The notes under the pieces are model-generated. The model was not told the DNA's origin and made no database searches. It saw only the letters and a list, made by a program, of their open reading frames with translations. From Levilactobacillus fujinensis (GTDB lineage: Bacteria; Bacillota; Bacilli; Lactobacillales; Lactobacillaceae), in assembly GCF_003946335.1 (NCBI RefSeq), contig NZ_RHNX01000001.1, forward strand, positions 1 through 64,000: a stretch of 64,000 nt of DNA. The letters run 5' to 3'. The position numbers and the translations under genes are program-made. Positions 39,202 to 63,065 of the stretch are shown here, one piece after another (within the stretch, counting starts at the first letter, position 1; each line of letters begins with the position of its first letter).

Positions 39202-39204
39202 AGA

Positions 39205-39305
39205 TGGGTGCCACGACACGTTCCCTTCGCAAGTCTGAACTTGACAGGTTCCAAGGGATCGCGATTGCTCGCATCTCAGCCCGGTCACGGACACCCCTAG
39301 TGTTC
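39205..39305 (-). promoter_or_regulatory. TPP riboswitch aptamer (THI element)
   Basis: On the minus strand the conserved THI-box blocks appear in order: ACTAGGGGTGTC, GGGCTGAGATGCG, GATCCCTTGGAACCTG, then GCGAAGGGAACGTG. These are the aptamer core that binds thiamine diphosphate. With the downstream terminator it controls thiM-thiD-thiE by attenuation. Confidence 0.95.
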
Positions 39306-39317
39306 TTGGTTACTTCA

Positions 39318-58039: not shown

Positions 58040-58972
58040 ATGAAAAAGAAAACTCTGACTTGGACGCTACCCCTACTAGGAATTGCCGCAACGTCGTTAG
58101 TCGCCAGCGAGCACCTGTTCAATTTTGCCTTTAAACGGGTCAACTACGTTCCGGAAACTTCCGCGGATAAACAAAAATACGCCGACGCCTATTACGCCTA
58201 CGTCGACTGGTATCAAAAAATTAGTAAGGAAAAATGGTATTTACACGAACACGACCCCAAAAATCGCATGGTTGCGGAGTACATCCCTGCTGAGACGCCG
58301 AGCAAGAAAACCGTCATTATTTCTCACGGCTATAAGGGCAACGGCGAGACGATGGCGAACTTTGCCCAAATGTATCACCGACTAGGATTCAACGTCCTGC
58401 TACCCGACGACCGCGGTCACGGCGAAAGTGCCGGCAAGTATATCAGCTTTGGCTGGCTCGACCGTCTAGACTACCTCCAGTGGATTCAACAGGTCATTGA
58501 CCGCTCTGGTGCCGACATTAAAATTTTGATGTTTGGTGTCAGCATGGGCGGCGCCACCATGGAGATGCTCTCCGGTGAAAGCCTGCCCTCACAGGTGAAG
58601 GCGATTATTGCCGACTGTGGCTACTCCAGCATTGAAGCCGAACTGACCTATCTGTTAAAACGTCAATTTCATTTGCCAAAATATCCAATCGAACCGCTGG
58701 TCAGCACCATTTCTAAACGGCGACTCGGCTACTACCTCGGCGATGTGACCGCCACGGAACAACTCAAGAAAAACAAGCGGCCGATTCTCTTCATTCACGG
58801 GGAAAAGGACGTGTACGTTCCGGTTGGCATGGCTTACGAAAACTATGCGGCAACCCACGCACCGAAACAACTCTGGATCGTAAAGAATGCCTCTCACGCC
58901 GAGAGCTTCTGGATGAATCCAGCACGGTATCAGGCGCATGTGACGGAGTTTTTGCAGACCTACTTTGATTAG
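58040..58972 (+). CDS. Membrane-anchored alpha/beta hydrolase (BAAT-like/YqkD family)
   Basis: 310 residues. An N-terminal segment at about 8-24 (WTLPLLGIAATSLVASEH) is a signal anchor. Alpha/beta hydrolase motifs: VIISHGYKGNGETM near 92-105 (oxyanion), PDDRGHGES near 120-128, nucleophile Ser168 in FGVSMGGAT, Asp in GEKDVYVP near 257, and catalytic His in NASHAESFW near 285. The substrate is probably a lipid or peptide ester outside the membrane. RBS GAAAGGA lies 8-9 bp upstream. Terminator at 59008-59034. Confidence 0.85.
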   Translation: MKKKTLTWTLPLLGIAATSLVASEHLFNFAFKRVNYVPETSADKQKYADAYYAYVDWYQKISKEKWYLHEHDPKNRMVAEYIPAETPSKKTVIISHGYKGNGETMANFAQMYHRLGFNVLLPDDRGHGESAGKYISFGWLDRLDYLQWIQQVIDRSGADIKILMFGVSMGGATMEMLSGESLPSQVKAIIADCGYSSIEAELTYLLKRQFHLPKYPIEPLVSTISKRRLGYYLGDVTATEQLKKNKRPILFIHGEKDVYVPVGMAYENYAATHAPKQLWIVKNASHAESFWMNPARYQAHVTEFLQTYFD

Positions 58973-59007: not shown

Positions 59008-59034
59008 AAAGGCCCGGTTTTTGCCGGGCCTTTT
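59008..59034 (+). terminator. Terminator after the hydrolase gene
   Basis: AAAGGCCCGG (59008-59017) pairs with CCGGGCCTTTT (59024-59034). Confidence 0.88.
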
Positions 59035-59255
59035 GGCTGTACTGTACTTACCATCCTAATCAGTCTGCATCATGTGGTTGTCATGAATCCCCGTACAGCA
59101 AGGCTTTTCCATTATTTACACCTGTGTACGCACAACCTTAATTTAGCCTGAAATCCCACGAATCTTCACACATTTAGATTTCCTTTAATAATTTATCGCA
59201 AAGTCATCACAACTTTAGCCCTTTTCTGGTCACAATATCCGGGTATAGTAATAAT

Positions 59256-59457
59256 CATAGTAATTAGCCAATAACTGTTACTAATCAAATTCTATATCCA
59301 ATCCCTTTTAGATTCTCTCCCCCTAAGAGAATCATTCCTAGTTAGGTTCCCTCAAGCCTAACTACTCCTCTAACAATGAATTCACACCCCCTATGTGAAT
59401 CCACTCCTCATGATAAAAATCGCGCCGCTCTCCTCCCCGAGAGTCGCGCGATTTTTT
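59256..59457 (+). ncRNA. Candidate small regulatory RNA with four C-rich-loop hairpins
   Basis: No gene lies in 58973-59987. A -10-like TATAGT (59244-59249) precedes about 200 nt with four consecutive hairpins: (1) GATTCTCT/AGAGAATC, loop CCCCCTA (59311-59333); (2) AGTTAGG/CCTAACT, loop TTCCCTCAAG (59340-59363); (3) ATTCACA/TGTGAAT, loop CCCCCTA (59380-59400); (4) a terminator AAAAATCGCGC...CGCGCGATTTTTT with inner stem CTCTC/GAGAG and loop CTCCCC (59415-59457). Linkers contain CTCCTC twice. Such exposed C-rich loops are typical of sRNAs that pair with Shine-Dalgarno sequences (Listeria LhrC, streptococcal csRNAs). The -35 is poor, so the 5' end is approximate. Confidence 0.6.
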
Positions 59458-59573
59458 TGTTCGCTGTTAATGTACATTCTTTAACCTAATTTGATCGCGC
59501 ACGCGCCCCAAGGCTCGGCGTTGGAAAATTATACGTTCCTAGTAACGCAACCCCCGCGACGCAGAAAAGCGTG

Positions 59574-61769: not shown

Positions 61770-63065
61770 TTAAATCAATCCCAGGCGTTTAAAGATAAAG
61801 TCTACTCGTCGCAAATGATAATGATAGTCGAATGCATCCGCAATCTGGTCTGGCGTGAGTCGACTGGTGATTTCAGGATTAGCTTCCACCAGTGGTCTGA
61901 ATTGCGTCTGTTGATCCCAAGCTTGGGCCGTCAATGGTTGGACCAAGTCGTAGGCATCTTCACGACTCAGGCCCGCTTCAATCAGCTTCAACAGGAGCCG
62001 TTGGCTATAGATCAACCCATAAGTCCGGTTCATGTTGGTCTTCATCGTCTCTGGGAATACGTCAAGATTCGTCAAGATCCGATTGATGCGGTGCAGCATG
62101 TAATCCAACAACGTCGTATCCTCCGGCAAAATCATCCGTTCGGCCGACGAATGGGAAATGTCACGTTCATGCCACAAGCTGACGTCTTCGTATGCCGTCA
62201 CCATGGTTCCTCGCAACACGCGGGCTAAACCAGTCACGTTTTCCGAACCAATCGGATTACGCTTGTGTGGCATTGCCGATGAGCCCTTTTGCCCAGGATT
62301 GAAATGTTCCTCGACTTCATGAATCTCAGAACGCTGCAATCCGCGAATCTCGGTAGCAATATTTTCGACACTAGTTGCAACTAGGGCCAACGTCGCAATG
62401 TAGTCGGCGTGTAGATCTCGTGGCAACACTTGTGTGGCGATTGGTTGCGCGCTAATCTCCAATTGGTCACAGACGAAGGCTTCGACCTCAGGTGGCACGT
62501 TAGCAAACGTGCCCACGGCCCCACTAATTTTTCCCGTTTCCACTTCGGCAGCGGCCCGGTCAAAGCGGACGAGATTCCGTTGCATTTCCGCATAGAAGCG
62601 CGCAATTTTCAGCCCAAAAGTCGTTGGCTCGGCTTGAACGCCATGCGTCCGACCAATCATAACCGTGTCCTTATATTGGCGGGCCATCTTCTTTAACGTC
62701 GCAATCAAGGTTTCCAAATCGGCCCGTAAAACCGCATTAGCCTGCTTCAACCGGTAGCCCTGTGCCGTATCCACAACATCAGTACTGGTAACGCCAAAGT
62801 GAATCCATTTTCGTTCAGCACCTAACGATTCGGAAACGTTCCGCGTGAAGGCAACCATATCATGGTGGGTAACGGCTTCAATTTCGGCGATACGGTCCAC
62901 ATCAAAGGTAGCATTGGCACGAATCTTGGCAGCATCTTCGGCGGGAACCTCTCCTAGTTTGGCCCAAGCCTCATCAATAGCGATTTCCACAGCTAACCAG
63001 GATTGATATTGATTCTCTAATGACCAAATCTGGCCCATTTCCGGTCGGGTATAGCGTTCTAACAT
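61770..63065 (-). CDS. purB: Adenylosuccinate lyase
   Basis: 431 residues, the usual length. It cleaves SAICAR to AICAR and adenylosuccinate to AMP, releasing fumarate in both cases. Motifs: FTRNVSESLGAERKWIHFGVTSTDVVDTAQ near 73-103, GRTHGVQAEPTTFG near 139-152 (catalytic His) and the superfamily signature GSSAMPHKRNPIGSE near 261-275. RBS AAGGAGGAA precedes the start. It is divergent from purA, with PurBox-like repeats between. Terminated by repeat B7. Confidence 0.96.
   Translation of the reverse strand: MLERYTRPEMGQIWSLENQYQSWLAVEIAIDEAWAKLGEVPAEDAAKIRANATFDVDRIAEIEAVTHHDMVAFTRNVSESLGAERKWIHFGVTSTDVVDTAQGYRLKQANAVLRADLETLIATLKKMARQYKDTVMIGRTHGVQAEPTTFGLKIARFYAEMQRNLVRFDRAAAEVETGKISGAVGTFANVPPEVEAFVCDQLEISAQPIATQVLPRDLHADYIATLALVATSVENIATEIRGLQRSEIHEVEEHFNPGQKGSSAMPHKRNPIGSENVTGLARVLRGTMVTAYEDVSLWHERDISHSSAERMILPEDTTLLDYMLHRINRILTNLDVFPETMKTNMNRTYGLIYSQRLLLKLIEAGLSREDAYDLVQPLTAQAWDQQTQFRPLVEANPEITSRLTPDQIADAFDYHYHLRRVDFIFKRLGLI

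Follow-up and report, generated by a model that had tools for sequence, protein, structure and literature searches.

A conserved predicted small RNA of Levilactobacillus with exposed C-rich loops and complementarity to G-rich Shine–Dalgarno sequences

A predicted non-coding small RNA (sRNA) gene of ~200 nt was located at 59257–59458 on the forward strand of a 64,000-nt stretch of the Levilactobacillus fujinensis genome (hereafter 'the window'), based on its predicted fold and a covariance model match. The gene stands alone between an alpha/beta hydrolase gene upstream (58040–58972, forward strand; Pfam Hydrolase_4) and a convergent gene downstream (61770–63065, reverse strand) that we take, from its sequence, to be purB. 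Both neighbours serve as synteny markers, as the hydrolase gene also precedes the RNA in a second genus (designated g34) and purB lies beyond the RNA locus both in g34 and in a third genus (g28). A terminator-like hairpin is found behind the hydrolase gene (~59008–59034), and the large open reading frames (ORFs) next downstream of the RNA are on the opposite strand, with a 469-aa reverse-strand ORF between the RNA gene and purB in this genome. In the ORF list of the window, the RNA region is free of any ORF of at least 60 aa. Elsewhere in the window, an ordinary TPP riboswitch (Rfam RF00059) is present at 39204–39308 on the reverse strand.

Sequence and fold both contain the four C-loop hairpins and the two CTCCTC linkers described in a first-pass annotation of this DNA. 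However, position 59244, which had been taken as the start of the RNA, is instead the start of a −10 box (TATAGT, 59244–59249), and the RNA likely starts near 59257. Moreover, two 5′ elements had been missed: a hairpin (UAGUAA...UUACUA, 59258–59283; mean unpaired probability 0.37) and a nearly invariant single-stranded region (TCAAATTCTATATCCAATCCCTTTTA, 59285–59310; mean unpaired probability 0.89) that is a candidate seed. These are followed by hairpin 1 (59311–59333; GATTCTCT-CCCCCTA-AGAGAATC, loop at 59319–59325), hairpin 2 (59339–59364; TAGTTAGGTT-CCCTCA-AGCCTAACTA, loop at 59349–59354), the first linker (59365–59370; unpaired probability 0.96), hairpin 3 (59377–59403; loop CCCCCTA at 59387–59393), the second linker (59404–59409; unpaired probability 0.95) and a putative intrinsic terminator (59416–59458) with the loop CTCCCC (59433–59438) and a T run. 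Hairpins 1, 2 and 3 were each assigned from fold, covariation and pairing probabilities, and the terminator from sequence and fold; a consensus terminator scan returned none in the RNA region.

The minimum free energy of the RNA fold is −55.8 kcal mol−1 (z = −10.56), a stability reached by 0 of 200 dinucleotide shuffles, and all six C motifs are predicted to be 95–100% unpaired. Four C-loop hairpins within 220 nt were found at this locus only, on either strand of the window (the next best place has two), and among 200 dinucleotide-shuffled windows none contained four while 24 contained three. Thus, the C-loop cluster is not a chance occurrence.

To probe conservation, the RNA was searched for by blastn, which recovered it in 22 of 24 genomes of the same genus (own genome included) and in 0 of 16 genomes belonging to the order's other families. 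From 30 distinct sequences, this genome's RNA among them, a covariance model was then built; it had exactly one match per genome in 34 of the 35 Levilactobacillus genomes, many of these having contributed to the model, and missed only a 72%-complete assembly. In this genome the match covers 59256–59410 (E = 1.9e-39, with its own sequence in the model). A 26-base pattern of the RNA was found in 27 named contigs, of which 25 are from Levilactobacillus, one from a 'Lactobacillus sp.' and one from a metagenome-assembled 'uncultured Lactobacillus'; L. brevis ATCC 14869 is among the carriers.

Across the 30 sequences, the 35 pairs of the structure are paired in 95.9% of cells. Double-sided changes were observed at 16 pairs (shuffle mean 10.0) and in 84 cells (shuffle mean 24.7), while slid versions of the structure yielded only 3–6 pairs, a comparison in which the true structure has an advantage because it was taken from one of the 30 sequences. 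A weaker measure, the number of further pair types, was 31 versus 27.9 and was reached by 34 of 500 shuffles. The double-sided changes fall on three of eight pairs in hairpin 1, five of nine in hairpin 2 and seven of nine in hairpin 3; the 5′ hairpin yields little covariation because seven of its nine pairs are invariant. The expectation that loops would be more conserved than stems held for hairpin 2 (mean entropy 0.17 for loop versus 0.50 for stem) and hairpin 3 (0.26 versus 0.77) but not for hairpin 1, which shows no clear contrast (0.34 versus 0.38). Outside the loops, the linkers (0.15 for the CTCCTC columns) and the 5′ single strand (0.23) are conserved as well as the loops are. It is very likely that the locus is a real sRNA gene.

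Beyond Levilactobacillus, a model search of 301 genomes of the family, run with stricter filters at the cost of weak matches, returned 15 Levilactobacillus genomes and three others. Two of the three belong to g34; the third (L069, genus g18; E = 0.06) matches mainly at the 5′ end and carries no C-loop array, and was set aside as probably spurious. A search with the hydrolase matched 13 of 15 g34 genomes, and in 12 of these 13 loci the gene is followed by a promoter module (below) and then by C-rich loops or stretches; the thirteenth (L147), where no cluster was seen, ends ~500 nt past the hydrolase gene and stood outside the promoter test. In one g34 genome the loops read TCCCCT, CCCCCT, CCCCCA and CTCCCC, on stems unlike those of Levilactobacillus.

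Genus g28, which the stricter search had missed, carries C-loop RNAs near purB in three of four genomes (G063, G130 and G156), with at least two copies each, and no other stretch had a cluster among 15 from the family that included these three (one of the 15 being just 421 bases long). The fourth g28 genome (G100) showed no C-loop cluster near purB. The g28 RNAs are shorter and arranged in tandem (L116:1010–1430, L157 and L159). Among 16 other stretches, the 11 from g52, g46, g37, g50, g19 and g28 (L135–L145) showed no cluster of at least three. Six stretches from g34 and g28 had fold z-scores from −5.8 to −10.2, with downstream sequence included in some. At matching loci next to the hydrolase gene, purB or both, the C-rich loops thus stay across genera, on stems that have been replaced. 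The proposal that homologous loci preserve the loops is therefore borne out by 34 of 35 genomes of the genus, by covarying stems and by two further genera with C-rich loops on different stems.

The −10 box of the RNA was assigned from sequence and an alignment of 22 loci; it has no good −35 box, and a promoter scan of the region did not list it among its predictions. Exactly 9 bp before it lies a GTCACA half-site (59229–59234, forward strand), and the arrangement KTCACA-N9-TATAGT was found in three of three Levilactobacillus loci tested and is seen in the 22-locus alignment as well. Further upstream, an array of 6-mers in 11-bp steps (TTTAGA, TTTAAT, ATCGCA and ATCACA; 59173–59211, forward strand) is conserved in the 22-locus alignment and is proposed to be a response-regulator site. 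The g34 promoters are more complete: all 12 loci tested have a −10 box (TATATT) and, exactly 9 bp upstream of it, a 6-N5-6 direct repeat whose first half is TTCACA (eight loci), TTCATA (three) or ATCACA (one) and whose second half is GTCACA, ATCACA or GCCACA. A close form of the module KTCACA-N5-KTCACA-N9-TATAR is therefore present in 12 of 12 g34 loci, while the Levilactobacillus C-loop RNA promoter keeps half of the module, with the proximal half-site alone in the exact position. In g28, TTCACA repeats were noted by eye upstream of the C-loop RNAs.

The exact module occurs at one place each in 23 of the 35 Levilactobacillus genomes, and a reversed control pattern at none. At all eight module loci that were read, the module starts a second conserved C-loop sRNA-like gene, with a potential 5′ hairpin, a hairpin with CUCCUCC in its loop and a terminator. 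In the own genome this gene lies outside the window (L305:1501–1700; G000:C1:165632 onward) under the promoter GTCACATTTTCTTCACAATT-N7-TATAG, and its fold has a z-score of −3.4, the best fold being one without the 5′ hairpin. The pattern of that hairpin was found in nine of the 301 family genomes, all Levilactobacillus (15 genomes of that genus were in the draw). With two mismatches allowed, four further places were found in the own genome versus three for the control, so most of these are due to chance. One of them, however, is the promoter of a third sRNA-like gene (L311:1501–1660; G000:C82:32243 onward) with three hairpins, all of whose tips read UAACCA, and a fold z-score of −4.76; its sequence has a blastn match in 29 of the 35 genomes, in one by 22 bases only. 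The module starts the second sRNA and, probably, this third one too.

The promoter geometry resembles that of activation by CiaR, with different letters, and we infer on this basis a regulator of the OmpR type. The shared module suggests that one such response regulator stands behind several multi-loop sRNAs, and it probably drives the C-loop sRNA plus one or two others. Nine genes with OmpR-type DNA-binding domains were found in this genome; upstream of them no clear KTCACA pair was seen, and one (L171) has weak repeats. PhoP, whose box (TTNACA) resembles the KTCACA half-site, was considered for this likeness and dropped as unproven. The stretch before a pst-like gene has no KTCACA pair and, as judged by eye, carries another 6-N5-6 repeat (TTTACC-GAAAA-TTTACA).

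To examine complementarity to ribosome binding sites, duplex energies with the RNA were computed at the starts of 331 genes. The mean was −11.7 kcal mol−1 versus −8.3 kcal mol−1 in coding controls, so that the predicted Shine–Dalgarno (SD) complementarity typical of streptococcal csRNAs is found here as well. However, energies below −14 kcal mol−1 were reached by 90 of 331 genes (11 of 331 coding controls); anti-SD complementarity is thus easily obtained and target lists based on energy only are too permissive, and they were replaced by a test of gene classes. A MucBP/KxYKxGKxW surface protein and a family-5 solute-binding protein (Pfam SBP_bac_5) are among the low-energy predictions. First in rank is a ROK-family gene, present in 35 of 35 genomes, which would be paired by the 5′ strand (−21.2 kcal mol−1).

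G-run SDs at genes of predicted secreted proteins were first noticed in an exploratory set (the window plus further stretches; 331 ORFs), in which GGGG was present in the SD region of 16 of 38 secreted versus 35 of 245 cytosolic genes. Later sets were tested by the same rules, under which starts and secretion are called crudely. The bias was found again in a second set from the own genome (14 of 32 versus 46 of 237) and in another Levilactobacillus (17 of 35 versus 41 of 280), which pooled to an odds ratio of 4.21, the two species being partly dependent through orthologues. A g34 genome, which joined the test after the first results were known, gave 5 of 24 versus 30 of 273 (P value = 0.18 alone). 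For the three carrier sets pooled, exploratory set excluded, the odds ratio was 3.67 (P value = 3e-8). For the two control genera, in which no such RNA was found (g52 and g26; 10 of 40 versus 49 of 274, and 2 of 25 versus 39 of 266), the pooled odds ratio was 1.12 (P value = 0.87), their non-carrier status being based on the stricter-filter model search that also missed g28, and on stretches of g52 and of another g26 genome.

The same picture was obtained when starts were chosen by purine content (pooled, 4.12 versus 1.21) and when families were collapsed (median odds ratio 4.2 in the two Levilactobacillus test sets and 3.5 with the exploratory set, versus 1.3 in the two non-carriers). AGGAGG showed no bias (odds ratios 0.81 and 0.64, neither significant), and GGGGG alone was not significant in the second set of the own genome (P value = 0.1). 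For membrane proteins with at least three predicted helices, GGGG did not differ clearly between carriers (15 of 57, 11 of 45 and 9 of 42) and non-carriers (12 of 53 and 11 of 52). For the two Levilactobacillus test sets together, a control stretch at −40 to −26 contained GGGG in 1 of 67 versus 9 of 517 genes (P value = 1.0); when the exploratory set was included, the counts were 5 of 105 versus 14 of 762 (P value = 0.07), which leaves room for a small bias beyond the SD region. A statistical association of G-run SDs with genes of predicted secreted proteins, as called by sequence heuristics, is thus present in carriers, and it may reflect regulation by the RNA.

Two further pairs of genes drew attention. 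In one (L198:7608–9598), a helicase gene (Pfam DEAD/Helicase_C) resembling comFA and the gene that follows it both have an AGGGGG ribosome binding site complementary to the loop of hairpin 3. In the other (L219:8762–10595; Pfam BPD_transp_1), two neighbouring transporter permease genes, which we take to be pstC and pstA, keep G-run SDs in their apparent counterparts in a second Levilactobacillus species (L235:4822–6652), as judged by eye.

Considered together, these features favour a trans-acting anti-SD sRNA that has an activator-type promoter and a terminator of its own, is driven by an OmpR-type regulator and has mRNAs with G-run ribosome binding sites as targets; we put the probability of this whole explanation at roughly 0.7. 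As read from the sequence, the RNA would be transcribed from its own promoter and end at its own terminator. Its stems, in the predicted structure that covariation supports, would be scaffolds presenting six C-rich sites along with the conserved 5′ single strand. Each C-rich site could then pair with a G-rich SD, block ribosome entry and repress translation, and this anti-SD mode of action is likely. Preferred targets would be mRNAs with G-run ribosome binding sites, which are over-represented at genes of predicted secreted proteins, and an OmpR-type response regulator would, as the shared module suggests, co-ordinate the RNA with one or two more multi-loop sRNAs. The targets are perhaps mainly the mRNAs of secreted and cell-surface proteins; this secretome role and the shared regulator are plausible, the association above lending a first statistical support.

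Redundant sites kept on replaceable stems would equally fit a decoy, that is, a sponge whose C-rich loops sequester some other, G-rich regulatory RNA, or else a protein that binds RNA, with no pairing to mRNA. Such a decoy does not predict the bias of carriers towards G-run SDs at secreted genes, and the linkers and 5′ strand, which are not loops, equal the loops in conservation; we regard it as unlikely. The CUCCUC of the linkers and the CUCCUCC of the second sRNA recall the 3′ end of 16S rRNA (CCUCC), so that the RNA might, as a mimic, bind a ribosome-assembly or translation factor and affect translation globally. However, the loop that recurs is CCCCCUA instead of CCUCC, and its GGGG counterparts are spread unequally among gene classes, which makes a global mimic distinctly improbable.

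Slightly less probable still is a cis-acting element, be it the 3′-UTR of the hydrolase transcript or the leader of some gene further downstream. The RNA does lie downstream of the hydrolase gene, here and in 12 of 13 g34 loci, yet a terminator-like hairpin intervenes, a −10 box and a terminator belong to the RNA itself, the large ORFs that come next run on the opposite strand, and g28 has duplicate copies of its RNAs near purB. Finally, short ORFs can be drawn in individual RNA sequences, as would be needed for a small-protein mRNA or a dual-function RNA. None of the 15 commonest start-codon positions, however, is common to more than 19 of the 30 sequences, the commonest sit in the stem of hairpin 3 with short frames, and the RNA lacks ORFs of 60 aa or longer; a coding role is therefore hardly credible.

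A broader form of the anti-SD reading can be sketched, albeit tentatively and with more doubt than belief: Levilactobacillus and its sister genera might control their cell surface post-transcriptionally by a dedicated system, with one regulator and a set of sRNAs (bearing C5UA loops, a CUCCUCC loop and UAACCA tips), for which secreted genes would have evolved G-run SDs as an address label that the C-loop sRNA could recognize on all of them together. If this were true, the ribosome binding site would serve at the same time as a barcode marking an entire category of proteins. In any case, the association of G-run SDs with secreted genes offers a concrete idea of how one sRNA might address a functional class of mRNAs, and the genera with kept loops on replaced stems amount to an experiment of nature that can show which features an anti-SD sRNA requires.

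The first-pass annotation had judged that the sequence belongs to no familiar RNA, and an Rfam search agreed: at the gathering score no family was matched by this RNA, by four loci of its relatives or by two loci of the second sRNA, the best weak match of the RNA being to an alphaproteobacterial family (E = 0.52). Rfam contains models for LhrC and for 6C, the latter grouped below with the actinobacterial B11. By title, the open literature on Levilactobacillus and sRNAs yielded nothing on sRNAs of the genus, and no description of this RNA was found among the titles listed.

In anatomy, the RNA is close to LhrC1-5 of Listeria monocytogenes, in which CU-rich UCCC sites, three in number and redundant, are spread over loop, linker and terminator; they pair with SDs and repress the surface proteins OppA, TcsA and LapB (PMC4132741; PMC5880928). 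LhrC is activated by LisR under envelope stress. Redundant C/U-rich sites in loops, linkers and terminator are predicted here as well, six of them unpaired, and while oligopeptide-binding OppA is among the LhrC targets (PMC4132741; PMC5880928), an SBP_bac_5 protein is among the low-energy predictions in this genome. The differences are that LhrC is present in five copies, versus one per Levilactobacillus genome (at least two copies were found only in the three g28 genomes), and that the present RNA has six C-rich sites, the hydrolase/purB locus and no Rfam match. It is presumably also longer than LhrC.

The csRNAs of the streptococcal CiaRH system are likewise complementary to SDs, and their −10 box has a TTTAAG-N5-TTTAAG repeat ten bases upstream of it (PMC3091779), a geometry similar to the 6-N5-6-N9 of g34. 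The box differs (KTCACA here versus TTTAAG in streptococci), the SD complement of csRNAs lies in an unpaired region between two stem-loops, and Lactobacillus is reported to be without CiaH homologues (PMC3091779). The staphylococcal IsrR likewise has C-rich regions that are conserved and single-stranded, three in all, located in loops and a linker, and the SD regions of its targets are involved too, but it is Fur-regulated with iron-enzyme targets, and its first two stems covary little (PMC9410917), whereas stems 2 and 3 covary here. Among the actinobacterial B11/6C sRNAs, B11 has two C-rich loops, either of which is sufficient to repress a target with a six-G tract in its 5′-UTR (PMC10470900); there are six sites instead of two loops here, with no Rfam match and in a distant phylum. 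RsaE/RoxS and FsrA also pair with their targets via a UCCC or C-rich motif (PMC4132741; PMC9410917). From these the present RNA is set apart by the Rfam search, which gave no match. The architectures and regulators of RsaE/RoxS and FsrA are presumably different too.

As a structured RNA that is conserved, non-coding and predicted to expose its C motifs, it would represent a new family within a kind already known, the anti-SD sRNAs with C-rich loops, with an anatomy like that of LhrC, IsrR and B11. With it, a group of Lactobacillaceae that includes L. brevis appears to have a conserved equivalent of the sRNAs that serve Listeria and streptococci in envelope stress.
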